In this document: piece by piece, positions 2,722 through 22,507 of the stretch
Layout of the letters: every line of letters begins with the position of its first letter
How positions within the stretch are numbered: the first letter of the stretch is position 1
NCBI GenBank assembly: GCA_903912525.1
Contig: CAIWHK010000028.1
Location: 1-64,000 of the forward strand
Direction: 5' to 3'
Origin: an uncultured bacterium
Lineage (GTDB): Bacteria > Krumholzibacteriota > Krumholzibacteriia > LZORAL124-64-63
DNA: 64,000 bases
Made by a program: the position numbers and the translations under genes
Notes under the pieces: generated by a model
What the model saw: only the letters and a program-made list of their open reading frames with translations
Databases searched by the model: none
Told to the model about the DNA's origin: nothing

Positions 2722-2786
2722 CGTGGGCCTCCGGAGTCGAGGGTCCTCAGTTGTCGGTGATCGGTGTCCCGATTCGTCGGGACGGT

Positions 2787-3419: not shown

Positions 3420-3903
3420 GGCCACCTCTCGGGGGTGGGGTGGGTCGTCTCCGGGCCAGCCGGCCCGGCGATGAAAAACATACCATATCGCTCCGAAATG
3501 GGGTGGAGGGTTTTTCTTTGGTCTTGCGGGCCGGGTCAAGGGGGTGCTGGCCTGGCTGCAGGTCGCGGGCGGCGGCTGGCGCGAGATGGTGCTGGCGACA
3601 ACCGGGTCGCACAACCTGCGCGCCGGGGAGGGGGGTGCCTTGCCGGAACCGGCTAGATTCCTGGGAGACTTGCGCCGGCGCAACTACCAGACGGCATCAC
3701 TATCTGCCGCCGCCGCAAGGTGTTCAGTGGTGCGGGTGCGTGCTGGCGCGGACGATCCCTACAGAAAAAGACTATCATTATCTTTTTCATCAGATAGGAT
3801 CACGCCTCGCGCGCCGACTTTGCCGGGACTCGTCTCGCCCACACGTGAGCGGCTGCCGTCGGCCGGCGCGGAGCCCTTGGAGCAGCGTCTCGAAGGAGAT
3901 GTC
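3420..3903. other. Divergent intergenic region (484 bp)
   Basis: No convincing gene lies here between two divergently transcribed secreted-protein genes. It holds an AT-rich inverted repeat (3764-3788) and a GC palindrome core TTGCGCCGGCGCAA (3670-3683), the latter shared with the intergenic region near 7.48 kb. It must contain promoters for both neighbours, but no canonical pair stands out. Confidence 0.6.
3764..3788. promoter_or_regulatory. AT-rich inverted repeat upstream of secreted-protein gene
   Basis: Arms GAAAAAGA (3764-3771) and TCTTTTTC (3781-3788) are perfectly complementary around a 9-base loop, in an otherwise very GC-rich region. TAGGAT at 3795-3800 could be a -10 hexamer for the gene at 3904, which would place the repeat over the -35 region as an operator. 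This is inference from position only. Confidence 0.35.
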
Positions 3904-4659
3904 ATGAACACTGTGAAAAAGCTCGCTACCGCGTTGACCCTGGCTGTCGTCGTCTGCGCCAGCATCGGATCCGGCACGGCGTCCGCAACGAATATCCCCA
4001 TCACCTGGCTGGACCAGTCGCCGACGGCGTTCGGTGCGCCGGTGCCCAACGGCGCGGTCATCAACGTCGCCGGCGTCGGCAACGTGACGATCACCTACTC
4101 GATCCCGGCCCACTGGACGCACTCCCGCCTGCTGAGCGCCGGGTACACGGCCGGCAGCGTGACCAGCGGCCCGGACACCTACTCGTGGACGAACTACGAG
4201 GCCTTCAGCACGATCTTCACGCCCGGCCTGCTGGGCCCCGAGGTCGGCACGATCACCTACACGTTCGCATCCACGCTGCCGGCGGGCTCGGTCTTTGTCG
4301 GGCCGCTCGGCCTGGGCGCCACGACCAGCTTCGGCGGCGGCACGTCCACCACGCGTGTCCTGCAGAACGGCACTTTCCTGGGCGATTACGTCGGTGACGT
4401 GACGGCCGGCGCCTCCCAGTTCATCGGCGGCGTGGGGGCCTTCACGGTGATGAACTCGGTGACCGGCGCCGGCGGCGCCAACCCCTGGTGGAACTCGCAG
4501 CTGGCGGTCGTGCGCGTCGACGACGCGGTGTCGAGCATCACCGTCATCCAGACGCAGCTGCGCGGCGACGGCATCGGCGTCAACATCGGCTTCGAGGTGG
4601 ATTCGGTGGTCGGCAGCGAGCCGTCGACGTGGGGCGGGGTCAAGGGCCTGTTCCGGTAG
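3904..4659 (+). CDS. Secreted protein of unknown function with C-terminal TWG-x-x-K-x-x-FR motif
   Basis: The 251-residue product starts at an ATG preceded by AAGGAGATG. Residues 1-28 are a typical Sec signal peptide (lysines, hydrophobic core, ASA). The mature part is rich in Gly, Thr, Ser and Val with beta-strand-like alternation (repeated TITYTF-type strands), like a secreted beta-sandwich protein. It matches no family I can name. The protein ends EPSTWGGVKGLFR. The unrelated secreted protein at 6480-7205 ends SATSWGRLKASYR, so the C-terminus may be a shared sorting or anchoring signal. The gene is monocistronic, with a hairpin behind it. The function is unknown. Confidence 0.7.
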   Translation: MNTVKKLATALTLAVVVCASIGSGTASATNIPITWLDQSPTAFGAPVPNGAVINVAGVGNVTITYSIPAHWTHSRLLSAGYTAGSVTSGPDTYSWTNYEAFSTIFTPGLLGPEVGTITYTFASTLPAGSVFVGPLGLGATTSFGGGTSTTRVLQNGTFLGDYVGDVTAGASQFIGGVGAFTVMNSVTGAGGANPWWNSQLAVVRVDDAVSSITVIQTQLRGDGIGVNIGFEVDSVVGSEPSTWGGVKGLFR

Positions 4660-4688
4660 GCGCACGCAGGACACGACGCACAAGGTTC

Positions 4689-4718
4689 GGCCGGCTCCCG
4701 CAGGGGGGCCGGCCGTTT
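4689..4718. terminator. Hairpin between convergent genes, possible terminator
   Basis: GGCCGGC (4689-4695) pairs with GCCGGCC (4708-4714), with extra G-C pairs possible inside, followed by only GTTT. The site lies between two converging genes. The weak T-tract makes efficient intrinsic termination uncertain. Confidence 0.5.
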
Positions 4719-4735
4719 CGCAAGTCATCGGGTCC

Positions 4736-6244
4736 CTAGGCGTCCATGTCCGCCCACTTGCGGGCCGCGCGCGCGAAGAAGACCAGCGCGATGATGGCCG
4801 CGACGCCGATGCCGGCGAACGGCAGCCACACCTTCAGGTGCGGGTCGTAGGTCTCCCAGAGCAGCGTCGTGGCCGCCGCGGCGTCCAGCCCGGTCACCTG
4901 CTGCAGTTTCACGAAGGCCTCGGTGCGCGCCACGCCGGCCGCCGCGTCCAGGCTGCCCAGCCTGCCGTCCCAGCTGCTGCCGCCGGGCGCGTGCTCGGCC
5001 AGGTACTTCTGCGCCAGCACAGCCTTCTCGCCGAAATTGCCGTAGAAGTAGCCCTGCAGCTTCGAGCCCACCAGGCCGCCCACGCCCACGGGGATGTTCA
5101 CGAATCCCAGGTACAGGCCCTTCTTGTCCGCAGGGGCGATCAGCGCCAGGTACTCGTTCTTCTTCGGGCCGGTGAGCATCTCGCCGAACGAGAAGCCCAT
5201 CACGCCGAGCAGGAACACCGAGCCCAGGTTCGTCAGGCCGGCCACCAGCACGCCGATGGTGGCCATGCCCATGCCGATCACCATCGACTCGAGCGTGCGC
5301 ATCTTGCGCACGAGCCAGGACACCGGGATCATCAGCAGCACGATCAGCAGGGCATTGAGGTTCAGCAGGATCTCCTGCGGCACCTGCAGGCCGCGATCGG
5401 TCTCGATGGCCCACTTGTCCGGAAACAGCGGTGAACTCCGGAAGAAGGCGGCCGTTCCGCCCGAGTCGTTCCAGTCGGTCAGGAAGTTCGGGTGCAGGTC
5501 CCACAGGGTGTACATCATCAGCCAGAAGCAGCTCATGATGGCCAGCCAGGTGGCCAGTCGCCAGTCGCTCAGCGTGCGCAGCGTGCGCGTGAGCACCTGC
5601 AGCGGGCTCGCGGTCTTGTCCGAGCCGCTGGCGAAGTCCTTGAACGTGAACAGCATCAGGTAGTTCAGCGACATCACCGCGGCCGCGGTGAAGAACAGCG
5701 CCTGCCAGGAGTAGTCGTGGCGGATGAAGTTGGCGAGCATCGGCCCGATCGCCGCGCCCACGTTGACCACCCAGTAGAAGATGCCCCAGCCCAGCGACGA
5801 GTTCGTGCGGTCCAGGTTCTGCGCCAGGCTCCCCTGCAGCGAAGGCTTGAAGAATGCGGTGCCCGTGGCCAGCACCACCACGCCGAAGGTGAAGCCCAGA
5901 AAGCTGGTCTGCGTGGCCATCAGGCAGTAGCCCAGCACGTTGAGGGTGATCGCGAAGAACAGGCTTCGCTTGTACCCGTAGCGGTCGGCGAAGCCGCCCG
6001 TGAACGTGGGCAATATCGACTGGAAGGCGAACCACAGCGCGTAGATGGTGCCCTTGTCGGCGGCCGTGAAGTGCAGCCCGTGCGGGTCATCGGCCTGCAT
6101 GATGTAGATGGCCACCACCGAGCGGACCAGGTAGTAGGCCAGCCGCTCGAACATCTCGATGATGTTGAGCAGCCAGTAGCCGGTGGGAAAGCCCAACAGG
6201 CGGCCGCGGCCGGCGAGCGCGTCGGTCAGCGGGGTGTCGGTCAT
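4736..6244 (-). CDS. POT/MFS family proton-dependent oligopeptide transporter
   Basis: The product is a 502-residue inner-membrane protein with about 12-14 hydrophobic helices. The start chosen is the ATG at 6242-6244, behind GGAGGATCC; a longer upstream reading adds a non-hydrophobic, non-conserved extension. The first helix carries an EMFERLAYY motif, the counterpart of the E-x-x-E-R-F-x-Y-Y motif of the POT family that couples protons to peptide uptake. The MFS loop motif GGFADRYGYKRS and the later GPKKNEYLALIAPADKKGLY also fit POT proteins. It probably imports di- or tripeptides. It stands alone with its own promoter candidate. Its exact substrate cannot be told from sequence. Confidence 0.8.
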   Translation of the reverse strand: MTDTPLTDALAGRGRLLGFPTGYWLLNIIEMFERLAYYLVRSVVAIYIMQADDPHGLHFTAADKGTIYALWFAFQSILPTFTGGFADRYGYKRSLFFAITLNVLGYCLMATQTSFLGFTFGVVVLATGTAFFKPSLQGSLAQNLDRTNSSLGWGIFYWVVNVGAAIGPMLANFIRHDYSWQALFFTAAAVMSLNYLMLFTFKDFASGSDKTASPLQVLTRTLRTLSDWRLATWLAIMSCFWLMMYTLWDLHPNFLTDWNDSGGTAAFFRSSPLFPDKWAIETDRGLQVPQEILLNLNALLIVLLMIPVSWLVRKMRTLESMVIGMGMATIGVLVAGLTNLGSVFLLGVMGFSFGEMLTGPKKNEYLALIAPADKKGLYLGFVNIPVGVGGLVGSKLQGYFYGNFGEKAVLAQKYLAEHAPGGSSWDGRLGSLDAAAGVARTEAFVKLQQVTGLDAAAATTLLWETYDPHLKVWLPFAGIGVAAIIALVFFARAARKWADMDA

Positions 6245-6374
6245 GGCGGGGATCCTCCGTGGCGGTCGCGACCAGCCGCTCGGCTCAAGGGCCCGGATGC
6301 CCGGAGCCCGGGCGCGGATGTGGCCGTTGGCCTCATCGCCGCCCATGTCGCCCCGCACGGTTAACGTGAGGATC

Positions 6375-6401
6375 ACTATATCATGGCGCGGGCCATGACA
6401 A
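6375..6401 (-). promoter_or_regulatory. Candidate sigma-70 promoter of the peptide transporter gene
   Basis: Read on the minus strand, TTGTCA (6396-6401) and TATAGT (6375-6380) are each one mismatch from consensus, but their spacer is 15 bp, shorter than ideal. This would give a leader of about 120 nt before the ATG at 6244. Confidence 0.4.
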
Positions 6402-6479
6402 CAGCCGGTACGGTGCGGCGTGATCGGGGCCAGAGACGGTCATGGAATCGATGGCGGCTGCGACAATCCACACTGCCGA

Positions 6480-7205
6480 TCACCGGTAACTGGCCTTGAG
6501 CCGCCCCCAGGACGTCGCCGACACCGGCACGGCGCCCTCGCCGGTCGCGTTGAAGTTGTTGAACGCGAGCCCGATGCCCTGCGTCTTGGTGCCGATGAAG
6601 TCGATCGTGATGCGGGCGATGCCCGGCGTCAGTCCCGAGAACGCGAAGGTCCATGGCCGCCCGTCCAACTCCGTGTTCAGGCAACCGCTGTCCTGGGTGC
6701 CGACCGGCGAGTCGATCGTGTCGAGCAGGTTGCCCAACGCGTCGTAGGCCGCGACGCGGTACTGCTCGTTGAGCGGAAGCGACGCGTCGATGTCCCAGAT
6801 CTCTCCCGAGGCGGCCGAGACCGTCCCGCCCGCGTAGTGGATGACGAGCAGGCGGAAGTCGGCGCCCGGGGTCCCGCGCAGGAAGAAGTTCCCCAACTGC
6901 GTCTCGAACCCGGGCGAGGCCGTGTCGCGGTCCACGCAGGCGGCGAAGCCGTCAACGCCGTCATTGCCGATGGCCTCGAACACGGCGGGCGTGTCCGGCG
7001 TGCCGTTGCCGTCCGAGTCGAAACCGAACGTGATGCCCAGCCCGCCGACCGCGTAGGCGGACGCGAGGCCAAGCGACGCGTTGTCCACGGCGGGGGCCCC
7101 GGCAGGATCGTTCTCGAACGTGATGACCTGCGCCCGCGCCGGCGCCAGGGCGGCTGTCGCCAGCGCGATCGCCAGGGCCATGGTGGTGAACGGCGGACGG
7201 AACAT
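6480..7205 (-). CDS. Secreted protein of unknown function with C-terminal SWG-x-x-K-x-x-YR motif
   Basis: The 241-residue product has a clear Sec signal peptide (residues 1-25, ending APARA) and starts at an ATG behind AGGGGGAT. The mature part is a beta-rich domain with FENDPAG near its start, an FGFDSDGNGTPD segment that could bind calcium, and strands such as ARITIDFIGTKTQGIGLAFN near the end. It resembles the PEP-CTERM/exosortase-associated style of secreted beta-sandwich, but no family is certain. It ends SATSWGRLKASYR, matching the ending of the protein at 3904-4659. There is no enzymatic motif. It is probably an exported surface or extracellular protein. Confidence 0.7.
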   Translation of the reverse strand: MFRPPFTTMALAIALATAALAPARAQVITFENDPAGAPAVDNASLGLASAYAVGGLGITFGFDSDGNGTPDTPAVFEAIGNDGVDGFAACVDRDTASPGFETQLGNFFLRGTPGADFRLLVIHYAGGTVSAASGEIWDIDASLPLNEQYRVAAYDALGNLLDTIDSPVGTQDSGCLNTELDGRPWTFAFSGLTPGIARITIDFIGTKTQGIGLAFNNFNATGEGAVPVSATSWGRLKASYR

Positions 7206-7440
7206 GGGCGATCCCCCTGCGGTGTGTCGGCGGCCCGACGTTTCCGGACCAGGATCGGCGGCTTGCGGGCTGCCGCCTCAGCGTCGGTCGATTGTGGCAG
7301 ACTGCGGGGTGCCAAATCAATAGGGGAGTAACTTTGTACATGATAGAGTCTGATCAGGGAGGCCCGGCACCGCAAGTGGGTACTGGCGGCGCCCAGGCGC
7401 GTGTCCGCTGGCGCTTGCGTCATACGCTGGGGTGATCACC

Positions 7441-7494
7441 GCGACTTGCGCCGTAGACTTGCGACTTGCGCCGTAGACTTGCGCCGGCGCAAGT
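7441..7494. repeat. Clustered ACTTGCG repeats ending in an 18-bp palindrome
   Basis: A 20-bp unit (GCGACTTGCGCCGTAGACTT) occurs twice in direct tandem (7441-7460, 7461-7480) and runs into the perfect palindrome ACTTGCGCCGGCGCAAGT (7477-7494). ACTTGCG thus occurs four times in one orientation and once inverted. A near copy of the palindrome lies at 3668-3685. It could be a regulator binding array or a dispersed palindromic repeat. Confidence 0.75.
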
Positions 7495-7729
7495 GCCCGC
7501 GACGTGACTTCGGTGCCGAAGCGGCGAGAGATTCTGGGGCTCCGGACCTTCCTTCGAGTTGTGTGAGAAACCCGGCGCGGAATCCGCACGTGGACGCCGA
7601 CTTGCCTCGTCGTTCGCCGGGGTCGCCCTCCCGGCAGGGTCCGTGATCACGCGTTTTCGCTGACGCGGCCTCCGGCGGCAGCGGTTTCGGGGCGTTCCGC
7701 GAGCCCGCGTCGCCACGTCCCGCCCGCCG

Positions 7730-7758
7730 TTGTTGGCCGGGTTGTTTCTTGCTATCTT
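7730..7758 (+). promoter_or_regulatory. Candidate extended -10 promoter for dnaE
   Basis: TTGTTG (7730-7735), a 17-bp spacer and TATCTT (7753-7758) preceded by TGC form an extended -10 arrangement. The predicted start is about 75 nt before the dnaE ATG. The -35 is weak. Confidence 0.4.
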
Positions 7759-7838
7759 CCGCCCGCCGGCGGCGACCAGCCACGCGCGATCCCAGGACCG
7801 AACAGCACCCGCCGCAAGGCATTCCGGAAACACGGCAC

Positions 7839-10800
7839 ATGGCGACCGAGACTTTCGTCCACCTGCACAACCACTCGGACTACTCGCTGCTCGACGGCGC
7901 CCAGAAGACGTCCGACATGGCCAAGCGGGCGGCCAAGTACGAGCAGCCCGCGCTGGCACTGACCGACCACGGCAACATGTTCGGCGCCGTCGAGTTCTAC
8001 CTCGAGTGCAAGAAGCAGAAGATCAAGCCGATCATCGGCATGGAGGCGTACATCGCCGGCGACCGGCACAACCGGACCGCCGAGCGCGAGAACAAGAGCT
8101 ACCACATGGTGCTGCTGGCCCGGAACGAGACGGGCTACCGCAACCTGGTCAAGCTGGCCTCGGCCGCCTACCTCGAGGGCTTCTACTACCGCCCGCGCAT
8201 CGACCGCGAGATCCTCTCGACGTACGCCGAAGGCCTGATCGGCCTTTCGGCCTGCATGAGCGGCGAGCCCAATTTCCACCTGCGCTCGGGCAACGTCGCC
8301 GCCGCGGTGGAGGCGGCGAGTGCTTATCGGGACATCCTCGGCCGCGATCACTACTACCTCGAGATCCAGAACCACGGGATCCCCGAGGAGGAGCGCATCC
8401 GCCAGCTGATGCCCGAGGTGGCGAAGCAGACGGGCTGCCCGATCATCGCGACCAACGACTGCCACTTCCTGGACCGCGAGCACCACGAGGCCCACGACAT
8501 CCTCATGGCGCTGCAGACGGGCAAGACGCTCAACGACCCGACGCGCTGGCGCAGCAACACGCCCGAGGTGTACTTCAAGTCCTCGCAGCAGATGCTCGAG
8601 CTGTTCCGCGACTGGCCCGAGGCCGTCGCCAATACGCTGCGCGTGGCCGACCAGGTCGACTTCAACCTCGAGCTGGGCAAGCTGCTGTTGCCGGCCTTCC
8701 CGCTGCCGGACGAGTTCGCCACCGCCGACGACTACCTCGAGCACCTGGCGCGCGCCGGCCTGCCGAGGCGCTACGGGGCGCTGACGCCCGAGCTGGAGGA
8801 GCGCCTGGCCTACGAGCTGCGCGTCATCAAGCAGACCGGCTACGCCGGCTACTTCCTCATCGTCTGGGATTTCATCGAGGCCGCGCGCCGGCTGAACGTC
8901 CCGGTGGGCCCCGGCCGCGGTTCGGCCGCCGGCAGCCTGGTCTGCTACAGCGTCGGCATCACCGACATCGATCCCATCCGCCACCAGTTGCTGTTCGAGC
9001 GGTTCCTGAACCCCGAGCGCATCTCGATGCCGGATATCGACGTCGACTTCTGCTTCGAGGGCCGCGGCCGCGTCATCGAGTACGTGGCGCGCAAGTACGG
9101 GCGCGAGAACGTCTCGCAGATCATCACCTTCGGGACGATGGCCGCGCGCGCGGTGCTCAAGGACGTCGCGCGGGTGCTCGAGTTCTCGTTCGCCGACAGC
9201 GATCGCATCAGCAAGCTGGTGCCCGAAGAGCTGGGCATTACGCTGCAGAAGGCGCTCGACGAAGCGCCGGGCCTGAAGGAAGTGGCCAACGAGTCGCCCG
9301 CCCACGCGATGCTGCTGCGCAACGCGCTGGTGCTCGAGGGCTTCAACCGAAACACGGGGATCCACGCCGCCGGCGTGCTCATCACGCCGTCGCCGCTCGT
9401 CGAGCACGCGCCGCTCTACCGCAATACCAAGGGCGACATCACCGTCCAGTACGACATGAAGATGAGCGAGGCCCTCGGCCTGCTCAAGATGGACTTCCTG
9501 GGTCTGCGCACCCTCACGGTGATCGACAAGGCGCTCAACCTCATCGCCGAGTCGACCGGCACACGGATGACCGCCGACCAGATCCCGACCGAGGACGAGG
9601 GCACCTTCAAGCTGCTGCAGGAGGGCCGCACGGTCGGCATCTTCCAGCTCGAGAGCAGCGGCATGCAGGAGCTGGTCCGCAAGATGGCGCCCACCGGCTG
9701 GGACGACATCACCGCCATCTGCGCCCTGTACCGCCCGGGCCCCCTGGGCGCGGACATGGACAAGGCCTACGTCGAGCGCAAGCACGGGCGCCAGAAGGTG
9801 CAGTACAAGGACCCGGTGCTCGAGCCCATCCTGCGCGACACCTACGGCGTCATCCTCTACCAGGAACAGGTGATGCAGATCGCCGCCGCGATGGGCGGTT
9901 TCACCATGGGTGAAGCCGATACGCTGCGGAAGGCGATGGGCAAGAAGAACGCCGACATGATGGCGGCCCTGAAGGTGAAGTTCATCGATGGGGCGCGGGA
10001 ACGTAAGCACGACGAGCGCGCCGCCCGCGAGATCTACGAGGAGATGGAGTTCTTCGCCCAGTACGGCTTCAACAAGAGCCACTCGGCGGCGTACGCGCTC
10101 CTTTCCATCCAGACCGCCTGGCTGAAGGCGCACCACCCGGCCGAGTTCATGGCCGCGACGATGACCACCGAGATGCGCAAGAGCGAGCGCATCACGCAGC
10201 TGATCGACGAGTGCAAGGCGCTGGGCCTGGTGATCGTGCCGCCGGACATCAACCGTCCGCGCAGCGAGTTCGGCGTGCGCGACGGGCAGGTCGTGTTCGG
10301 GCTGGGGGCGGTGCGCGGTGTCGGCGCCGCGGCCATCGACGTCATCGCCGCCTGCCGCGACGAGCTGGGCCGCGACTTCACCGACCTGTTCGACCTCTGC
10401 GAGCACGTCGACCTGCAGAAGGTCAACCGCAAGGTGCTCGAAGGCCTGATCAACGCCGGCGCGATGGATCTCCTGCCCGGCCACCGCCGCCAGCTGCTGA
10501 TGAGCCTCGAACGCGCGCTCGGCTTCGGGCAGAAGTCGGCCCGCGACCGCGCCGGCGGCCAGGCGTCGCTGTTCGGCGGGCTGGGCGCGGTGCAGATGCG
10601 CCCGACGCTGCCCGACTGCGAACCGTTCGACCCGCTGGTCCTGCTCGGCCGCGAGCGCGAATCGGTGGGCTTCTTCCTGTCGGGCCATCCGTTCCACGAA
10701 TACCGCGAGCTCATCGCGGGGCTGCCGTGCGGCTCGACCGCCGGCGCCGCGAAGTCGGGCGACGGCGCCTGGGCCGATCTTGTCGGCATCATCACCTCGC

Positions 10801-11611: not shown

Positions 11612-11699
11612 TGTGTATGCTCGGCCAGCCCGAAACCGGGTGGACGGCCCATCCGGGGCCGGCGGCAGGTGGGGCCCTCGGGCCGCCGGAAGGCGTGGG

Positions 11700-12680
11700 A
11701 TGGACTGGAAGAAGAAATCGATCTGGCTCGACTTCGAGCTGCCCATCGTCGAGCTGGAGGAGCGGATCCAGACCCTCCAGGACTCGGCGTCCGTGCGTGG
11801 CATGGACGTCGACGACGAGGTGGAGCGCCTGCGCGCCAAGGCCAGCCGGCTGGGCAAGGAGATCTTCGCCAAGCTCGAGCCCTGGCAGCGCGTCCAGCTG
11901 GCCCGTCATCCCCGCCGCCCGACCACCAACGACTACATCCACCACCTGTTCCCGGACTACATCGAGGTCCACGGCGACCGGATGTTCCGCGACGACGAGG
12001 CGATCGTCGCCGGCCTGGCCTCCCTCGGCGGCCGCAAGGTGATGGTCATCGGCCACCAGAAGGGCCGCGACACCAAGAGCAACATCCGCCGCAACTTCGG
12101 CATGGCCCACCCCGAGGGTTACCGCAAGGCCCTGCGCCTGATGGAGATGGCCGCGCGCTTCGGGCGCCCCGTCATCACCTTCATCGACACGCCGGGCGCC
12201 TATCCCGGCCTCGGCGCCGAGGAGCGCGGGCAGGCCGAGGCCATCGCCCGCAACCTGCGCGACATGTCCGACCTGCCGGTGCCCATCATTTGCCTGGTGA
12301 CGGGCGAGGGCGGCTCGGGCGGCGCGCTGGCCCTGGGCGTGGGCGATCGCGTCTACATGCTCGAGAACTCGATCTACTCGGTGATCAGCCCAGAGGGCTG
12401 CGCGGCCATCCTCTGGCGCGACCCGGCCAAGAGCAAGGACGCCGCCAAGGCGATGAAGCTGACGGCGGTCGACGCGCTCGAACTGGGCGTCATCGACGGC
12501 GTCATTCCCGAGCCCATCGGTGGCGCGCACCGCGACCACAAGGCGATCGCGATGTCGGTCAGGGCGGTCATCCTCGATGCGCTGGCCGAACTGGAACCGC
12601 TGCCGACCACCGAACTGCTCGAGCGTCGCCTGCGCAAGTTCCTCGGCATGGGGGTCTGGGAAGAGGCTGGGGGCGACTGA
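11700..12680 (+). CDS. accA: Acetyl-CoA carboxylase carboxyltransferase subunit alpha
   Basis: The 326-residue protein matches the normal AccA length. AccA and AccD form the carboxyltransferase that moves CO2 from carboxybiotin to acetyl-CoA, making malonyl-CoA for fatty acid synthesis in the cytoplasm. The start at 11700 follows GGAAGG. Family signatures are [13 protein letters not shown] at the N-terminus, [37 protein letters not shown] and the glycine-rich [16 protein letters not shown] of the crotonase-like fold, then [16 protein letters not shown]. accD and the biotin subunits are not in the window. It has its own promoter and leader hairpin, so it can be controlled separately from dnaE. 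Confidence 0.96.
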
Positions 12681-13113: not shown

Positions 13114-13302
13114 ATGCTCGACCCCAAGCTCCTGGAGATCCTGGCCTGCCCGCTGTGCCGGCAATCCGTCACGCCGGACGCCGCCCACGCCTGGCTCTAC
13201 TGCCGCGGTTGCTCGGTGCGGTACCGCGTCGAGGAAGGCATCCCCATCATGCTGCCGGACGAGGCGCAGCCGATCCCCGCCGCCGGCGGGACAGGGGAGT
13301 AG
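13114..13302 (+). CDS. Trm112-like zinc-ribbon protein
   Basis: The 62-residue protein starts MLDPKLLEILACPLC, the standard opening of the bacterial YcaR/Trm112 family. It has CPLC and CRGC cysteine pairs for a zinc ribbon and the late IPIMLPDEA segment. In eukaryotes and archaea Trm112 activates methyltransferases; bacterial homologues are small and poorly understood, often near lipid A or envelope genes. The start follows GAGAGG. Its stop lies 4 bases before the GTG of the next gene, whose ribosome binding site sits inside this gene, so the two are probably translationally coupled. Confidence 0.85.
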   Translation: MLDPKLLEILACPLCRQSVTPDAAHAWLYCRGCSVRYRVEEGIPIMLPDEAQPIPAAGGTGE

Positions 13303-13306
13303 CCGC

Positions 13307-16300
13307 GTGTGCCTGTTCACGCATTTCGCGGCCGGTGCGCTGGCCGGCGGGCTGACCGGGTCGGTCGGCTGGGGCGCGGCCGCGGGCCTGGGTTCGCACG
13401 CCGTGCTGGACGTGCTGCCTCATTATGATCATCCGGACTGGCGCCTGGAACTGGGCGGCGGGCTGGCGGCGCTGGCGCTGCTGCTGCTGATGCCGTTCGC
13501 GACGCCGGCCGCCATCGTGGGAGGGATCGCCGGGATGCTGCCTGACCTGGAGAACCTGTTTCAGAAGCTGGGTCGCCTTGGGCGCGACCGCTTCGTCTTC
13601 CCGACCCACACCGGCCTGCTGAAGCACGGCAGTCGTCGCGGACCGCGCAACCTTGTCGTGCAGGCGGCGATCTTCGCCGCGTGCTTCGTCGTGCTCGGCC
13701 TGCTGCACCCGGGCGAAGCGGCGGCGGCCGACATGACGCCGGCCGATCAGGCTGCAGCGACGGCGACGAATGCAACGCCGGCGGCCGTGATGGCCGAGCC
13801 CGTCGTGCGCGTTGTCAGCCAGACGGCCGATCGCACCATCGTGCGCATCGACTTCCCGGTGCAGTCGGCCCCGGCCGACTGGCAGACGATCGATCCGGCG
13901 ACGGTGCGCTTCGCGCTGCCGCCCGTCATCGACGACATGGACGACGGCATCGGCGGGCAGTTGCGGATCCTGGCGCCCGAGATGCGCCTGTCGCTGGCCG
14001 TACCCACGCGCCAGGCGCCGCAGGTCGTGGTGACTGATGTGCGCTGGTGGCGCGAGCCGTCCGCGGGTCTCGACGAGTCATCGCTCGTCGTCGTCGGCGC
14101 GCCGGCCGTCTATCGCAAGGTGCCGCTGGCCGGCTTCCGCGTGGCGCTGGCGGGCGGCGATGGTGTGCTGGCCGGGCTGACGCTCGAGTGCCGCCACCCG
14201 GCGACCGCGCCGTTCGCGTCGCGCCTGTCACGCGCGGCGAAAGTCGCCGGTTCCGCCGGTGTCGACGCCGCGACGACGACGCCGGCCGGGGTCGCCAACG
14301 GCGACCTGTTCAACGCGCTGGCTGTGGGCGCGCGCGACGAATCGTTGGCTGTCGCCGCCGTGAAGGCGGCCGCGTTCGATCCGTTCAACGCCACCTCGCA
14401 CTGGGTCTCGGTGCGCCTGTCGGCAACGGGGCTCTACCGCCTGACGGGCCAGCAACTGGCCGGTTACGGCGTGCCTGTCGGCGACGTCGATCCGGCGAAG
14501 CTGCGGATGTTCCGCGGCGGTTCGCTGGCGCTGGAGATGGACCCGGAGTATCCCGACTCGCTGCAGGCCGACCGCACGCGCCTGAACGAAGTGGCGATCA
14601 ACGTCGTCGACGGCGGCGACGGCGAGTGGAACCTCGACGACGAGGTCCGTTTCTACGGCGTCGGCACCAGCGCCTGGCTGGACCGGCTCCAGGACGGCGC
14701 CGGCCGGCTCGAGCACTATGACCACCCCTACGCCGATGAAGCCGTCTACTGGCTGACGTGGGAGAACGACGCGACGGCTTCGCCCGTGCCGGGTGCGCCG
14801 CGCCGCGTGCCGGTGGTCCAGGCGCCGGCGCTGGGCGGCGAGGCGGTCACGACCGCGCGGCTGCGCCTGCACCTCGAGCAGCAGTATGCCGATATGGTGG
14901 GCGTGGTCGTCGACAACTGGGCCTGGGACAGCTCCATCTTCAGCTCACACACCGACCAGTTCGCCGTGCGCACGCCGGTGGCCGGATCGAGCACGCATTT
15001 CGTGGCCGACGTGCGCGGCATGTACGACCTCTACTCGGCCGCCTTCGTCTTCACGTCGAAGGCCTGGCTCAACAGCGACCAGGCGCAGGCCGGGACGACG
15101 ACGATCACGTATTCCGCGCAGAACGACAGTACGCGCGTGCGCATCTTCGGGGATTCGACGGCGCTCATCCCCGGCACGAACATCTTCACCGTCCAGAACG
15201 CCTCGGCGTCGCAGTCGACGCGGCGGCCGCTCGCGCTGGACAGCTTCGACCTGCTGTACTGGACCGCGCTCACGCTGGACCCGGCCTTCGGCCAGTACGA
15301 TTTCGCGCACTGGGGCGAGCAGGTCGCGGCCCCCGGCACGGCGACCGACCTGCGGTTGTCGGTGGCGGCGGGCGCCACACCCATCTTCTGGGACGTGTCG
15401 CAGCCCGATTCGGCGCGCATCCTGGTCGGCACGGCGGGTTCCGGCGTGGTGACCTACGGTGTCGTGCGCGATCCCGGGACCGACCTGCACTGCGTGGCGA
15501 GTGCGCCGGCCAGCCTGCTGGCCGTCACCTCGGGCACGCGGCAGCTGCCCGTGTCGCTGCTGGACGACGATGGTGATGTCGACTACGTCGCTGTCTCGGC
15601 ATCGGCGTTCTCGGCGGCGGGCCAGAGCCTGGCCACGTTCCACGGCTCTGTCCTGCCGGGTGTCGCTTCGCCGCGCGCGCGGGCCGTCACTGCCGAGGCC
15701 ATCTACAACAACTTCTCGGGCGGCCAGAAGGATCCGATGGCCATCCGCAACTACCTGCGGGGCCTCTACGAGTCCGGCGGCCAGCGCCTGAAGCACGTGT
15801 GTCTGGTCGGCAAGGCCAGCCGCGACTTCCGCAACTACCGGGGCGCCGTGCCCCTGGTCGACCTGTACGACATGGTGCCCACCGTCGTGCGGCACTATTT
15901 CCCGATGTTCCCGGTGGCCCTGAACCGCCAGACGCCGTTCGCCTCGGACGACGCGCTGGTCTCGTTCGACTCGGCGCCGCCGTCACCCATCTCGCGCGCC
16001 GACCTTGATGTGCCCGATGTCGCCTGCGGGCGGTTGCCGGCCGTGGACACGCAGCAGGCGCGCGCGATGGTCGATCGTGCGATCGAGCAGGCCGTGGCCC
16101 CGGCCGAGGGCGCCTGGCGCAACCGGATCATGCTGACCGCGGACGACGTCTACCGGCCCAGTTCGGGCCAGGTGCCGGTCTTCGGCGAGGACACGCACAC
16201 GCGCGAGGCCGAGGATGTCGCCGGCAATTTCCTGCCCGCCAGCCTGGACGTCGCCAAGCTCTACGGAATCGACTTCCCCTTCCCGCCGTCGTCGCAGGTC

Positions 16301-17794
16301 AAGCCGGCCGCCCGCGCGGCGATCAACGCCATGCTGAACTCCGGCACGACGCTGTACTACTACGTCGGCCACGGCGCCGAGGACAACCTGGCCGACGAGC
16401 AGATCTTCCAGTCGCGCGACATCGCCAACCTGGGCAACGGATCGCGGCGGCCGCTGTTTGTCGCCTTCAGCTGCGACGTCGGCGTCTACGACAGTCCGTC
16501 CCGCCTCTCGATGGCCGAGCAGTTCGTCAGCTACGCCGCCGGCGGCGCGTCCGGCGCCATCTGCGCCAGCCAGGTCAGCTGGAGCACCGACAACGACGCG
16601 GTGACCGAGGCGTTCTTCCGGAACCTGTTCCCGTCGCGCCACGTGCAGTCCGGCCGACCGGTCGGCGAGGCGCTCCGCCTGGCCAAGGGACAGATGGTGT
16701 CGCTCGACTACCGGGCCAACAGCCAGCGCTACAACCTCATGGGTGACCCGGCGATGCGGTTGCCGCATCCGGTGGATGACCTCGTGCTGGCCCCGGCCAG
16801 CCTTGACACGCTGCGCGCGGGCGCCCGGCAGACGGTTGTGTTGTCGGCCAGCGGGAAGGCGGCGCTCGGCGCCGGCGATCGCTATCGCCTGCGCGTGGAG
16901 GAGAGTTCGACCCCGCGCTCGTACGAGAACACGCCATTCGGCGGGACGGCCACCTGGGTCGAGAGCGGTTCGTCGGTCTTCGACGGGGAAGGCACAGCCG
17001 GTTCAGGCGACCTGGTGATCCCCTTCAAGGTCCCGGCGCAGATCCGCTACGGCGACAGGGGACGCGTGCGTCTGCTGGTCGAGTCTTCGGACGGCGACCA
17101 TGCCGCCGTGCAGGTGGTCCCCGCAGTGCGCGGTTCGCTGGGCGCGGTGGACGACATCCGTGGACCGCTCATCAGCCTGGCGTTCACGGGCGGCCGGCAC
17201 CGGGTACACCCGGGCGACGCACTTTCCGCGTCGCTGGTCGACACCAGCGGCATCGCGATGCTGGGCACCAGCCCGGGCAACTCGCTGCTCCTGGAACTGG
17301 ACGACTCGGGCCGGATGACCGACGTCACCCCGGCCTTCGCCTACGACCCGGACAGCTACACCAGCGGCGGCCTGGTCTACCCGCTGCCCCAGGACCTGCC
17401 CAGCGGGATCCACCGGGCAGCCCTGCACGCCAGCGATGCCCTCGGGAACGTGGGTTCCGACACCCTCAGCTTCGAGATCGTGCCCTCGGAAGTGGCCGGA
17501 ATCGAAGACGTTACCGTTTTCCCTAACCCGACGCCCGGCCCGTGCCGACTCCTGTGCGAGTTGAGCGACCCGATGGCCGTGCAGTGGGACATCTACACGC
17601 TGGCAGGCCAGCGCCTGCGCACGATCCAGGCGGAACCGGCGGATGCCGGCCCCTGTATCCTGGAATGGGACGGGCGCGACAGCCAGGGCGACGAGATCGC
17701 CAACGGCACCTACTTGTTTGTGCTGAGGGGCGCGGGCGCCTCGGCCGACGGACGTGAGATCACGAAGACGGGCAAACTGGTCATCATGCGATGA
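13307..17794 (+). CDS. C25 (gingipain/PorU-like) protease fused to an N-terminal membrane domain, with FlgD-like C-terminal domain
   Basis: This 1495-residue protein starts at a GTG behind GGGGAG. Residues 1-135 are a multi-helix membrane domain with conserved-looking HAVLDVLPHYDHPDW and GMLPDLENLF, resembling small DUF457/YdjM-like membrane proteins. Its last helix ends HPGEAAAA-DM, a good signal peptidase I site (A141/D142). The exported part begins with a beta-rich segment, then a caspase-like C25 domain with a catalytic His at 1022 (YYVGHGAEDN) and Cys at 1056 (VAFSCDVGVYD). An Ig-like region and an FlgD-type domain follow (VFPNPTPGPCRLLCELSD ... KTGKLVIMR). The PorV-like gene follows directly, as expected for PorU, the type IX protease that processes and attaches cargo. 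The fusion is unusual; the PorU role is inference. Confidence 0.8.
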   Translation: MCLFTHFAAGALAGGLTGSVGWGAAAGLGSHAVLDVLPHYDHPDWRLELGGGLAALALLLLMPFATPAAIVGGIAGMLPDLENLFQKLGRLGRDRFVFPTHTGLLKHGSRRGPRNLVVQAAIFAACFVVLGLLHPGEAAAADMTPADQAAATATNATPAAVMAEPVVRVVSQTADRTIVRIDFPVQSAPADWQTIDPATVRFALPPVIDDMDDGIGGQLRILAPEMRLSLAVPTRQAPQVVVTDVRWWREPSAGLDESSLVVVGAPAVYRKVPLAGFRVALAGGDGVLAGLTLECRHPATAPFASRLSRAAKVAGSAGVDAATTTPAGVANGDLFNALAVGARDESLAVAAVKAAAFDPFNATSHWVSVRLSATGLYRLTGQQLAGYGVPVGDVDPAKLRMFRGGSLALEMDPEYPDSLQADRTRLNEVAINVVDGGDGEWNLDDEVRFYGVGTSAWLDRLQDGAGRLEHYDHPYADEAVYWLTWENDATASPVPGAPRRVPVVQAPALGGEAVTTARLRLHLEQQYADMVGVVVDNWAWDSSIFSSHTDQFAVRTPVAGSSTHFVADVRGMYDLYSAAFVFTSKAWLNSDQAQAGTTTITYSAQNDSTRVRIFGDSTALIPGTNIFTVQNASASQSTRRPLALDSFDLLYWTALTLDPAFGQYDFAHWGEQVAAPGTATDLRLSVAAGATPIFWDVSQPDSARILVGTAGSGVVTYGVVRDPGTDLHCVASAPASLLAVTSGTRQLPVSLLDDDGDVDYVAVSASAFSAAGQSLATFHGSVLPGVASPRARAVTAEAIYNNFSGGQKDPMAIRNYLRGLYESGGQRLKHVCLVGKASRDFRNYRGAVPLVDLYDMVPTVVRHYFPMFPVALNRQTPFASDDALVSFDSAPPSPISRADLDVPDVACGRLPAVDTQQARAMVDRAIEQAVAPAEGAWRNRIMLTADDVYRPSSGQVPVFGEDTHTREAEDVAGNFLPASLDVAKLYGIDFPFPPSSQVKPAARAAINAMLNSGTTLYYYVGHGAEDNLADEQIFQSRDIANLGNGSRRPLFVAFSCDVGVYDSPSRLSMAEQFVSYAAGGASGAICASQVSWSTDNDAVTEAFFRNLFPSRHVQSGRPVGEALRLAKGQMVSLDYRANSQRYNLMGDPAMRLPHPVDDLVLAPASLDTLRAGARQTVVLSASGKAALGAGDRYRLRVEESSTPRSYENTPFGGTATWVESGSSVFDGEGTAGSGDLVIPFKVPAQIRYGDRGRVRLLVESSDGDHAAVQVVPAVRGSLGAVDDIRGPLISLAFTGGRHRVHPGDALSASLVDTSGIAMLGTSPGNSLLLELDDSGRMTDVTPAFAYDPDSYTSGGLVYPLPQDLPSGIHRAALHASDALGNVGSDTLSFEIVPSEVAGIEDVTVFPNPTPGPCRLLCELSDPMAVQWDIYTLAGQRLRTIQAEPADAGPCILEWDGRDSQGDEIANGTYLFVLRGAGASADGREITKTGKLVIMR

Positions 17795-17853
17795 TGGCCG
17801 GAGGGACGGGGCGCAGGCCCGGTCCCGGGACAACCACTGGAGGTAGGACGGAC

Positions 17854-18882
17854 ATGAAGAGGATGCTGACGACGGTCGCCCTGGTGGCGGCCCTGACTAT
17901 GGGTATCTGCGGCACGGCCCTGGCCGGTTCCGGCGCGGGCGCCATCAACCTCAGTTTCCCGGTCGGGGCGCGCTACAACGCTCTGGGCGAGTCGGGTACG
18001 GCTCTCGCGCAGGACGTCACCGCGCAGTGGTGGAATCCGGGCGGCCTGGGTTTCCTGCCGCAGCGTGACCAGCCGCACGACGTGCACATCATGCAGTCGA
18101 GCCTGGCCGAGGGCCTGGCCGAGGACATCGGCCTGTACTGGGGCGGCTACGCGACGCCGATGGGCGAGAACGGCGCCCTGGGCCTGTCGCTGAACTACCT
18201 GGACATGGGCGAGCAGCAGGGCACCGACGAGAACGGCGCCGAGACGGGCGTCTTCCGGTCGTACATGTTCGCGTTCGGCGCCTGCTACGGCGTGCGCGTT
18301 TCGCCCAACGTCGGCCTGGGCCTGGGCGTGAAGTACTTCCGCGACAAGCTGGCCGAGACGAACGTCATGCAGGACACGCAGGGCGGCGGCAGCGGCGACA
18401 GCTTCGGCGTGGACCTGGGCCTGATGTGGAAGGTGCCCAGCCTGAAGTCGAACATCGGCATCGCGGTGGCGAACCTCGGTCCGGACATCAAGCATGTCGA
18501 CGCGGACCAGAGCGACCCGATGCCGCGGAAGCTGACGATCGGCGTGGCGCACAGCCTGTACCACAGCGACTACATGGGCTTCCTGCTCGTCGCGGACTAC
18601 CTGGTGCCGTTGTACAAGTGGAAGGACAACGACTACGGCTTCGGCCTCGAGACGTCGCAGAAGGAATACGGCGTCGGCGCGGAGTGGAACTACCTGCGCT
18701 CGCTGTACGTCCGCCTCGGCTACAAGAGCGCCGAGTACGGCGACATCAAGGACTCGACCTTCGGGTTCGGCGTCGACCTCGATCGCTGGGTCGGCCAGCC
18801 GATCGCCTTCGACTTCGCGAAGGTGCCGCAGGCGCAGGGCCTGCCCAACGTGACGCGCCTGTCGATCGCGTACCGCTTCTAG
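17854..18882 (+). CDS. porV: PorV/PorQ-like outer-membrane protein
   Basis: The 342-residue protein has a signal peptide (1-26, ALA) and starts at an ATG behind a perfect GGAGGT. The mature N-terminus FPVGARYNALGESGTALAQD with AQWWNPGGLGFLP is the hallmark of the UPF0164/PorV family of FadL-type barrels. Repeated strands (LGLSLNYLDMGEQ, VGLGLGVKYFRDKL) run to a C-terminal aromatic (LSIAYRF), as in outer-membrane barrels. In Bacteroidota PorV shuttles type IX cargo from the translocon to the PorU protease. Here it lies directly after the C25 protease gene, supporting that pairing. The symbol is by family resemblance. Confidence 0.75.
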   Translation: MKRMLTTVALVAALTMGICGTALAGSGAGAINLSFPVGARYNALGESGTALAQDVTAQWWNPGGLGFLPQRDQPHDVHIMQSSLAEGLAEDIGLYWGGYATPMGENGALGLSLNYLDMGEQQGTDENGAETGVFRSYMFAFGACYGVRVSPNVGLGLGVKYFRDKLAETNVMQDTQGGGSGDSFGVDLGLMWKVPSLKSNIGIAVANLGPDIKHVDADQSDPMPRKLTIGVAHSLYHSDYMGFLLVADYLVPLYKWKDNDYGFGLETSQKEYGVGAEWNYLRSLYVRLGYKSAEYGDIKDSTFGFGVDLDRWVGQPIAFDFAKVPQAQGLPNVTRLSIAYRF

Positions 18883-18982: not shown

Positions 18983-21900
18983 TTGCCGCTCAAGACTGAC
19001 CACCGCCGGCCGCGGCCCAGGAGCCGCGGCCCGGCGGTCCTGCCGGTCTTCATCCTGTCCGTGCTGCTGGTCGCCGAGGCGGTGGCGGGCCCGCGCTGGG
19101 AGCGCCTGCCCGCACGTCGCTGGACTTGGGACCAGGTCGTCGCGACGACCGGCGGGCGCCGCGTTCTTGACGACGAACTGCAACGGCAGGGTGAGACCGT
19201 ACGCCGCTGGCGCGCCGTCCATGAACTGCTGGGCGAGAAACAGGTTTCGCGGAAGTCGCAGCGCCTGTTGGCCGAGCGGGGCCTCGGGCCCGCGCTCCTG
19301 GCCGCCGGCGCCGACCGCGACAAGGCGGCCAGCGGCATCGACACGCTGCGCGTGCTGTTCGTGCGCATCGCGTTCGACGGCAACCGCGCCCCGAACCTGA
19401 CGACGGTCCCGGCGGGCGGCGATTTCATGCTCGACCCGCTGGCCAACCCGGGCCCGCTGGAAGTCGACCCGCCGCCGCACGACAAGGCCTACTTCGAATC
19501 GCACCTGCAGGGCCTGACCGAGTACTACCGGTTCATGTCGGGCCGGCGTCTGCAGATCGAGGGCCAGGTCCTGCCCGCGGGGGACCAGGCGGCGTATCGC
19601 GTCCAGGACATCGCCGAATACGGGCCGGGCGCCGGCAACTTCTGGACGATGGCCGGCCTCGAGGCGCTCGTGCGCGACATGATCACCGCGACCGACCAGG
19701 GCACGGCCGCCGACGGCACCGTCAACCTGGCCGACTACGACGACAACGACCCGTTCACGTACGTCATCTTCGTGCATGCGGGCAGCGACTGGCAGAGCGA
19801 CGTGAACGGCGATTCGCCGAACGACGTCCCCACGTTCTTCGTGAACCTGGGCGAGGCGCAGGCGCTGACGACCATCGGCTCGGACGGTATTCCCGGTTCG
19901 CTGACCGAGTGTTCGGTGATTCCCGAGACGACCAACCAGGACGGTTACGCCGGCAGCATCGCCGCCGCGTTCTACCACGAGTTCGGCCACGCCCTGGGCC
20001 TGCCCGACGTCTACGACAGTTCGCGCGGCCTGCCGTCGGTCGGCATCTGGGACCTGATGGACTCGGGCACCAACCTTTCGGCCACGCTCGGGGCCATCAC
20101 CGCGGCGGGCGACACGGTCTACGTGGTCGCGGGCGGCGTGCTGCCCCCGTCGTTGTCGGCCTGGGACAAATGGTTCCTCGGCTGGCTCGAGACGCGCGAC
20201 CTCGACTACAAGAGCGGCGAGTACCGCCTGCCGGCGGTCGGCGTGCCGCGCGAGGACTATGCCATGTGGGCCGGCGGTTACGGCGCGTTCCGGCTGGCCG
20301 ACCCGCAGGCGTGGCGCGGCGGCCTGTCGCCGCGCGAGTGGTTCCTGATCGAGAACCGCTGGGTGCCCTCGGGCAACGAACCGCTGCCCTGGGACGCCCT
20401 GTCGTTCGAGCGCGACGACAGTACCGGCGTCATCCTCTACCTGGCAGGGCACGTGCCCGACACCGAGGTGTGGGAGAACAGCGGACTCTACGACTACTTC
20501 CTGCCCGCCGGCGGCGCGCTGGTCTGGCACGTGAACGCCGATCGCATCGAGGCGGGCCTCGAGTCGAACACGATCAACACCGACGGCGACGGCCTCAAGC
20601 TGGTCGAGGCTGACGGCCTGCAGGACATCGGCGTTCTCGACGCCTATGTGCTGGGCTGGTACGGTTCGTGGCGCGACCCGTTCGGCGGTCGCGACCTGGA
20701 CGGCGTGGCGACCGGCTACAACTCGCTTCCGGCCGACGGCTTCCCGAATACGCGCCTGCACGACCGGTCGTGGTCGCACCTGGCGCTGTCCAACATCGGG
20801 CCCTACGGCTCGCGGGCATTGCCGAGCGTGATGAAGTTCGAGGCCACGCTCGGGCGCGTGCCGCCCGGGCTGCCGTGGACCATCGCGTCCGAGTCCGAGT
20901 CCGAAGGCGTGCCCGCCGGGCCGCGGGCCATCGATCCCCTGACGCTGACGCCGCTCGAGGTGTCGGGCACCCGGCTGCTGCTGTTCACCGATGCGCCCGG
21001 CGCCAACCACGGCGACGCGCCGTTCGACGCCACCCTGTATGCGGTGACGGTGGACGGGCGCGAATGGTGGCCGCGGGCGAGTGGCCGCCCGGTGGGGGGC
21101 ATCTTCGGCCTCGGCGGACGGGTGGCCGGATCGCCCGTGGCGCTGGCGCAGTCGGGCGGCGGGACCGACCTGATCATCACGCTTCGCGAGGGATCCGTGC
21201 GGTCGGTCAGCCTCGGCGTGGCCGCCGTCACGGCCGGGTGGCAAATGGCGTTGGCCGATTCCCTGGTCTGCGGCGCGGTACCGTTGCGCGCCGGCCTCGC
21301 GACGCGACTGGCCTGTGCAGCGCCGGATCGCGTGTACCTGTTGACGTCGGCGGGTGCCGCCGTCGGCACCCCCTGGGTGCCCGGCGAACCGCTCGACCCC
21401 CAGGCCGAAGTGACCGGTGTCTGGCCGATTGCGACAGGTGTGTACGACCGACTGTGTGTCACGACCCGCGTCGGCTGGTACCTTGTCGGTACGGACGGCG
21501 ACGGCTGGACGACGACCGGATTCAACCCCTATCCGCGCCCTGCGGTCGGCGCGATCACGGCAGCGGTCGTGCCAGTTTCCGCGGTTGTGGCAACGGTCCA
21601 CGTGTTCGACGACCTGGGCGCCGTGGGAGCCTGGCGCCTTGACGACGAACTGGTCGAGGCTGCCGATCACGTGGCCGCTGTCGACGGCCCGCTCGTCTGT
21701 GCTCCGGCGGTGGCCGACGTGGACGGCGACGGACTCAACGACCTGGTGGCCGCCACGGCGACGCGCGTCTGCGCGCTGAAGGCCGACGGCATTCCCCTGC
21801 GCGGCTGGCCGCGTCGTTTGTACGACCTGTTCCCGCTGGCCGACACGACCCGCGTGGCCGGGCCGCTGGTCGTGGCCGACGCCACGGGTGACGGCCACAA

Positions 21901-22507
21901 CGAGATCTTCTTCAACACCGACGGCGGCCACCTCATGGGACTCGGCCCCGATGGCACGCTGCTCGAACAATTGCCGCTGCGCTGGGGCGACCGGCAGCAG
22001 GCCGGGTTCGCCATCGCCGACGGCACCGCCGGGCGCCTGCTGTGGCTGGTCTCGAGCGGCGGCTACACGTCGCCGCCGATGGAGCGCACGTGGGTCAACG
22101 GCCGCGTCGCGGCCTGGCAGGTGGACCGCCAGGTCGGCACCAGCGAATGGCTGGGCCCGGGCGGCGGTATCGCGCGCAATGGCCCGGCCGGCACGGCCGT
22201 GGACCTCGGTTCGGGCACGACCGCGGCGCTCGACCGCGCCGAAGTGGCCCTGTTCCCGAATCCGGTCAGCGGCGAGGCCGTCAATGCACGCTTCTGGTCG
22301 GACGCCGCCGGACCGGCGCGCCTGGCCGTGTACGACCTGCAGGGGGAACTGGTGCGCGAAGGCACCTTCGAGGGAGCCGGCGGGCAGATGAACCAGGTGC
22401 GCCTGGAACTGCCGGGCATCGCGAGCGGCATGTACGTTGCCGTCCTGGACTTCATGGGCTCCGGCGGCCGCCGGACCCGCACGATGACGCTGGCGGTCGA
22501 ACGATGA
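18983..22507 (+). CDS. M6-family (immune inhibitor A-like) secreted metalloprotease with FlgD-like C-terminal domain
   Basis: The 1174-residue protein uses a TTG start at 18983, with GAGGAG placed 7 bases upstream. A signal peptide lies at about residues 16-36 (VLPVFILSVLLVAEAVAG). The protease domain carries the zinc motif HEFGHALGLPD (H332, E333, H336) and further M6 features such as SVGIWDLMDSG. A long beta-rich region with FG-GAP-like repeats follows (DVDGDGLNDLVAATATRV, DATGDGHNEIFF). The last ~90 residues are an FlgD-like sorting domain (VALFPNPVSGEAVNARFW; SGMYVAVLDFMG). It is probably a cell-surface or secreted protease exported by the type IX-like machinery encoded next to it. Confidence 0.88.
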   Translation: MPLKTDHRRPRPRSRGPAVLPVFILSVLLVAEAVAGPRWERLPARRWTWDQVVATTGGRRVLDDELQRQGETVRRWRAVHELLGEKQVSRKSQRLLAERGLGPALLAAGADRDKAASGIDTLRVLFVRIAFDGNRAPNLTTVPAGGDFMLDPLANPGPLEVDPPPHDKAYFESHLQGLTEYYRFMSGRRLQIEGQVLPAGDQAAYRVQDIAEYGPGAGNFWTMAGLEALVRDMITATDQGTAADGTVNLADYDDNDPFTYVIFVHAGSDWQSDVNGDSPNDVPTFFVNLGEAQALTTIGSDGIPGSLTECSVIPETTNQDGYAGSIAAAFYHEFGHALGLPDVYDSSRGLPSVGIWDLMDSGTNLSATLGAITAAGDTVYVVAGGVLPPSLSAWDKWFLGWLETRDLDYKSGEYRLPAVGVPREDYAMWAGGYGAFRLADPQAWRGGLSPREWFLIENRWVPSGNEPLPWDALSFERDDSTGVILYLAGHVPDTEVWENSGLYDYFLPAGGALVWHVNADRIEAGLESNTINTDGDGLKLVEADGLQDIGVLDAYVLGWYGSWRDPFGGRDLDGVATGYNSLPADGFPNTRLHDRSWSHLALSNIGPYGSRALPSVMKFEATLGRVPPGLPWTIASESESEGVPAGPRAIDPLTLTPLEVSGTRLLLFTDAPGANHGDAPFDATLYAVTVDGREWWPRASGRPVGGIFGLGGRVAGSPVALAQSGGGTDLIITLREGSVRSVSLGVAAVTAGWQMALADSLVCGAVPLRAGLATRLACAAPDRVYLLTSAGAAVGTPWVPGEPLDPQAEVTGVWPIATGVYDRLCVTTRVGWYLVGTDGDGWTTTGFNPYPRPAVGAITAAVVPVSAVVATVHVFDDLGAVGAWRLDDELVEAADHVAAVDGPLVCAPAVADVDGDGLNDLVAATATRVCALKADGIPLRGWPRRLYDLFPLADTTRVAGPLVVADATGDGHNEIFFNTDGGHLMGLGPDGTLLEQLPLRWGDRQQAGFAIADGTAGRLLWLVSSGGYTSPPMERTWVNGRVAAWQVDRQVGTSEWLGPGGGIARNGPAGTAVDLGSGTTAALDRAEVALFPNPVSGEAVNARFWSDAAGPARLAVYDLQGELVREGTFEGAGGQMNQVRLELPGIASGMYVAVLDFMGSGGRRTRTMTLAVER

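Follow-up and report, generated by a model that had tools for sequence, protein, structure and literature searches.

A polytopic membrane protein and the exported protein that follows it can be encoded as one chain, as in fbcH of Bradyrhizobium, whose product is a cytochrome b/c1 precursor that is proteolytically separated. PorU, the sortase of the type IX secretion system (T9SS), usually begins with a plain N-terminal Sec signal peptide, which is a customary and not a defining feature of the protein. In P. gingivalis, PorU is located on the cell surface and bound to PorV, according to PMC5562754. In the same organism the activity of LpxE, the lipid A 1-phosphatase, is functionally tied to the T9SS, as described in PMC12704123. 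Small polytopic proteins of the YdjM/YfhP type have received the remark 'putative phospholipase', and their deletion gave no antibiotic phenotype in PMC10215302. YdjM-type proteins also carry the label metal-dependent hydrolase in database records. In a literature search limited to the pairing of Krumholzibacteriota and type IX secretion, no paper combining the two was found.

In this study we analysed a gene of the Krumholzibacteriota in which a PorU-type sortase is preceded, in one frame, by a membrane domain. The gene lies in the window, by which we mean the whole stretch of 64,000 nucleotides that was analysed (Table 1). Its frame opens with GTG and runs for 1,495 codons free of internal stops. 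We consider, with a probability of about 75%, that the gene encodes a precursor of two proteins which arose by a clade-specific fusion and is split by signal peptidase I, the membrane domain having a job of its own and the sortase being exported. The start is situated four bases past the stop of the Trm112p-like gene and follows a good ribosome binding site, both as given in an initial annotation made from the window; the motifs LPHYDHPDW and LPDLENLF and the residue pair A141/D142 named there are likewise all present.

Table 1. Features of the fused gene and its surroundings (window positions; residues are those of the fused protein).
Feature	Position	Strand	Basis or remark
accA, acetyl-CoA carboxylase carboxyltransferase alpha	11613..12680	+	PF03255 E 5.2e-147; heads conserved neighbourhood
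Trm112p-like small gene, 62 aa	13114..13302	+	PF03966 E 1.7e-11
Ribosome-binding-site-like AGGGGAG	13293..13299	+	sequence inspection; 7 bases 5' of GTG
Fused gene, membrane domain + PorU sortase, 1,495 aa	13307..17794	+	one open frame
Membrane domain, residues 1-135	13307..13711	+	profile, alignment, AlphaFold2 model
Last helix (residues 115-133), proposed internal signal sequence	13649..13705	+	AlphaFold2 helix; hydropathy; G003 paralogue alignment
A138-A141, proposed signal peptidase I recognition/cut region	13718..13729	+	small-x-Ala in 22/22 fused sequences
Hypervariable linker, residues 142-165, past proposed cut	13730..13801	+	low identity, raised dN/dS over 136-165
PorU (type IX secretion sortase) homology, residues 362-1493	14390..17785	+	NF033707, 464.1 bits
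Peptidase C25 catalytic region, residues 760-1152	15584..16762	+	PF01364 E 7.4e-74; H1022 (GHG), C1056 (SCD)
FlgD-Ig-like C-terminal domain, residues 1425-1474	17579..17728	+	PF13860 E 9.5e-8
PorV/PorQ-family outer membrane protein	17791..18882	+	NF033709 E 1e-53, PF19572 E 2e-15

By its profile matches, the larger part of the fused protein is a PorU-type T9SS sortase; transpeptidation of cargo onto a surface glycolipid is its predicted activity. The score against the PorU sortase equivalog model lies above the cut-off of 420, which, together with the match to Peptidase_C25, bears out the C25/PorU-like assignment of the initial annotation. The His/Cys pair of C25 falls within the PF01364 match, and we take H1022 and C1056 to be the catalytic dyad of this family. 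The protein shares with other T9SS sortases the C-terminal Ig-like domain and the neighbouring porV, and SprA_N is encoded elsewhere in the genome. The ATG of the PorV-family gene overlaps the porU stop, and an alternative later start near 17854 is possible. The difference from these sortases lies at the N-terminus, where a five-helix membrane domain stands in the place of the usual plain Sec signal peptide, which is absent.

The long frame might be the product of an assembly or sequencing error that deleted a stop codon between two genes, and it is true that other families encode the two parts in different genes. We searched a profile of the domain (A2) in 98 genomes, 80 of the class of the window and 18 outside it. 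Matches were obtained in 46 genomes, every one in this class: 22 of 38 in the family of the window (f1), 19 of 20 in f3, 4 of 5 in f7 and 1 of 6 in f6, with none in the 11 genomes of f2, f4, f5 and f8 and none in the 18 outside the class. No match was seen in 132 genomes of the phylum of G088, a set that had no positive control. The junction is open in all 22 domain-bearing f1 genomes; 16 of these frames extend into most of porU, and the other six stop at or near a contig end. The stop of one fused locus (L140, in G032), 298 codons in, is close to the contig end and well beyond the junction. A PorU tree of 60 rows, built by a quick method, groups all fused rows in a single clade (support 100); this clade also contains L088, which, like L089, L094 and L103, is cut at the contig end, so that these four rows do not count as domain-less. 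An error was rejected, and its probability is close to nil, because the junction is open in 22 of 22 domain-bearing f1 genomes from many independent assemblies.

Outside f1 the domain is encoded by its own gene (133-137 aa), immediately 5' of porU. There are 17 such stand-alone loci, 16 of which extend to the next gene, and that gene is porU in all 16. The start codon lies in a four-base overlap with the stop (ATGA or TTGA) at 14 of the 16, the usual sign of coupled translation. The initial annotation had suggested an alignment of relatives and had regarded a stop codon between the two parts as the mark of an error here; stops were found only in other families, where the parts are overlapping separate genes. 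The fusion seen in the window is therefore genuine and confined to one clade; its two parts correspond to neighbouring genes that overlap but remain distinct in other families of the class. In the basal members of f1, porU has no such domain and shows an ordinary signal-peptide-like N-terminus wherever its start is covered. The domain is dispensable for the T9SS in general, since five of the six f6 genomes and all 11 genomes of f2, f4, f5 and f8 are without it. At L073 (genome G073), a degraded stand-alone domain gene with both ends kept and the middle gone is found at about 287-428 of the reversed locus, beside an open porU; this could be a real loss or an assembly artefact.

The proposal that the last helix of the domain doubles as the signal sequence of the sortase, made in the initial annotation, gained support from three directions: a conserved cut motif, a paralogue without the domain, and the plain signal peptides of separate and domain-less PorU. 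A hydropathy peak of 2.59 lies at residues 116-133. Past this helix, at a fixed place, the small-x-Ala motif is A-x-A in 20 of the 22 fused sequences and V-S-A and S-T-A in the remaining two, all of which are acceptable to signal peptidase I. Alanine occupies positions Q119+19, +21 and +22 in 19, 20 and 20 of the 22 sequences; over the next 22 columns it is found in a mean of 3.4 of the 22. A genome of the same genus as the window (G003) possesses two tandem porU genes, the first without the domain and with a plain signal peptide (RFAVVTAAVLALVCAAAGAA), the second fused. The alignment of the first copy to the fused one begins where the last helix starts and shows 63.7% identity in 1,393 columns, the signal peptide of the first copy being aligned with that helix. 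At this locus (L084) the copies occupy 1546-5772 and 6249-10691, and a trm112 match precedes the second. The separate and domain-less PorU with a covered start begin with a plain signal peptide, in agreement with what had been stated as normal for PorU. From these sequences, cleavage of the fused chain by signal peptidase I is likely.

It is less easy to reconcile these data with a fusion that stays uncut, in which the sortase would be tethered to the inner membrane via helix 5 and work in the periplasm. The region past residue 141 could also be a tether; identity over residues 136-165 averages 0.39 between pairs, and dN/dS there is 0.42-0.74 in four pairs. However, the cut motif has been retained after the last helix in every fused sequence, and an ordinary signal peptide is carried by the domain-less paralogue and by domain-less or separate PorU with a covered start. 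Since in P. gingivalis the cell surface is where PorU, bound to PorV, acts (PMC5562754), release from the inner membrane would be expected and permanent anchoring is argued against, if this is valid here, where porV also follows porU. We therefore regard a permanent tether as unlikely. The stand-alone domain copies are without the small-x-Ala motif and mostly end in Arg-containing tails past the last helix, so that their own C-terminus may lie on either side of the membrane.

Another possibility is that ribosomes also initiate internally, shortly before helix 5, so that one frame would yield two products and the sortase would have a short signal peptide to itself. In the window one GTG is present at Q119-1, but it is accompanied by just 2 of 6 Shine-Dalgarno matches and by no basic n-region. 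Among the 16 fused genes examined no start position is common to all, and the commonest (Q119-28), present in 11, is absent from the window. Internal initiation of a separate sortase was rejected because no internal start is conserved in these 16 genes, and we consider it highly improbable.

In a precursor split by signal peptidase I, events might proceed as follows. Translation from the single start would lead to insertion of helices 1-4, and the positively charged loop 87-114 would remain inside. Helix 5, oriented N-in and C-out, would serve as an internal signal sequence and send the sortase through Sec, and signal peptidase I would cut behind the A-x-A, at about residue 140/141. Once released, the sortase would reach the outer membrane together with PorV, which is encoded beside it, and the domain would be left in the inner membrane with its own function, for which a metal-dependent reaction on a membrane lipid seems the most likely. 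As in fbcH, one chain contains a polytopic membrane protein followed by an exported one, the cleavage being presumed for the fused protein. However, the products of fbcH stay together as subunits of a respiratory complex, whereas those of the fused gene would go to different membranes, the domain to the inner and the sortase to the outer one. The fused gene may represent a bacterial case in which an inner-membrane protein and an exported outer-membrane enzyme are made on one chain, likely split by signal peptidase.

The membrane domain itself, about 135 residues long and described as multi-helical in the initial annotation, was modelled with confidence. AlphaFold2, supplied with 39 aligned relatives, predicted an all-helical structure (pLDDT 93.4, pTM 0.86) with helices at residues 3-17, 20-36, 45-61, 67-87 and 115-133. 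Residues 1-141 alone gave zero Pfam or NCBIfam family matches at E values up to 5, and no solved relative of the domain was found by sequence at E up to 10. Fold searches with the model yielded no significant match in the PDB, with a best Foldseek E of 3.8 and a best VIA Z of 4.6, and none among viral models; a missing match does not imply a new fold. Nine residues, H6, H31, D35, H39, D41, D80, E82, H101 and H107, are invariant in all 39 aligned sequences, which take in distant stand-alone relatives from two Firmicutes genomes and one Blackburnbacteria genome. If the basic loop 87-114 is inside, as the positive-inside rule suggests, all nine would be at the cytoplasmic face; the predicted helices and this loop orientation would thus place them on one face, as a single site would need. 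The invariant residues are potential ligands; we infer that the domain binds metal and that its most likely enzyme role would be a metal-dependent step on membrane lipid at the cytoplasmic face.

Over residues 1-135, dN/dS was about 0.18-0.24 in four pairwise comparisons. Mean identity over 105 pairs was 0.73 for the domain, whereas three segments of the sortase gave 0.43, 0.55 and 0.58. These sequence comparisons show that the domain is under purifying selection as a protein in the fused frame. Even if the chain is cut, the domain might be merely a targeting or folding aid, that is, a long signal-anchor with no chemistry of its own. That it may be missing agrees with such a role: among the 80 genomes of the class, 34 gave no domain match, some owing to incomplete assemblies, and G073 retains only remnants before its open porU frame. 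However, the nine His, Asp and Glu residues are invariant in stand-alone copies as well, including the distant Firmicutes and Blackburnbacteria copies that have no adjoining porU, and the domain is better conserved than the sortase it would merely assist. A pure targeting aid is therefore doubtful, and a domain with its own function is the reading that we follow.

The nearest likeness of the domain is to YdjM (PF04307) and DUF4184 (PF13803). By hmmscan, YdjM gave weak matches in 9 of 31 domain members (best E 5e-4), none over the Pfam cut-off in any of the 31, and DUF4184 a weak match in one of the 31 (E 0.0016), none over the gathering score. In profile comparisons by hhalign, which used only 7 and 5 template sequences, the probability was 71.6-73.4% against YdjM, on the PD-x-E/H-x-G part, and 76% against a DUF4184-like set, on SH-x-x-LD-x-x-x-H-x-D. 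All are small polytopic proteins with an N-terminal TH, a helix end with PD-x-D/E, H-x-G...H and SH-x-x-LD motifs, and an SHxxLDxxxHxD-like motif is common to the domain and the DUF4184-like set. The order of the motifs differs. In YdjM it is TH or TQ, PDxD, HRxxTHS and H-x-x-x-D, whereas in the domain it is TH, SHxxLDxxPHxD, PDxEN and H...HG, that is, permuted. When the domain profile was doubled in tandem, the best YdjM alignment crossed the joint, with the score rising from 36.1 to 45.6 and the probability from 73% to 88%; reversed controls remained below 1%. With the DUF4184-like set, doubling the profile did not improve the match (76% to 58%). These results are suggestive, though not proof, of a circular permutation of the domain relative to YdjM, and from this weak similarity a hydrolase may be considered a candidate role. 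True YdjM was found in one of 58 genomes of the phylum (G040), on a contig other than that of its porU. A search with PF13803 gave no match, in the controls either, and has no bearing on the presence of DUF4184.

The stand-alone Firmicutes relatives (L163 9986-10387 and L164 2936-3334) both lie between what we take to be a MurJ-like gene and lepA, a setting that hints at an envelope-lipid role. The Blackburnbacteria relative (L165 9902-10408) is situated between genes that are presumably glycosyltransferase-like and mutM-like. LpxE (PMC12704123) is likewise a lipid enzyme linked to the T9SS, the lipid role of the domain being only putative; it differs in that it is not fused to PorU, and no sequence relation is claimed.

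The unnamed membrane protein is tied to the T9SS sortase by three signs, namely the adjacency at 16 of 16 loci, the start/stop overlap and the fusion. This makes it a specific candidate for an envelope-lipid step that has gone unrecognised in the T9SS outside Bacteroidota. A more far-reaching reading, which is speculative and which we put forward only tentatively, is that a circularly permuted YdjM/DUF4184-like membrane metalloenzyme serves the type IX sortase of Krumholzibacteriota as a dedicated partner and makes or trims the membrane lipid later joined to cargo, one clade producing both 1:1 as a single chain that signal peptidase splits.

The surroundings of the gene are also conserved. In sister loci (L064-L123), read for gene presence and order only, the order accA-trm112-[domain]-porU-porV is kept across the class whether or not the domain is present, and partly so in G080. 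accA stands 5' of porU in most of the loci that extend far enough, and trm112 does so in loci both with and without the membrane domain. We know of no functional reason for accA and trm112 to stand beside T9SS genes. Directly after porV, the window encodes at 18983-22504 (+) a protein that resembles M6-family proteases. Its T9SS sorting tail is weak (TIGR04183, 20.7 bits, below the cut-off of 23), and the protein partially matches the model 'T9SS-dependent M6-like inactivated metalloprotease'.
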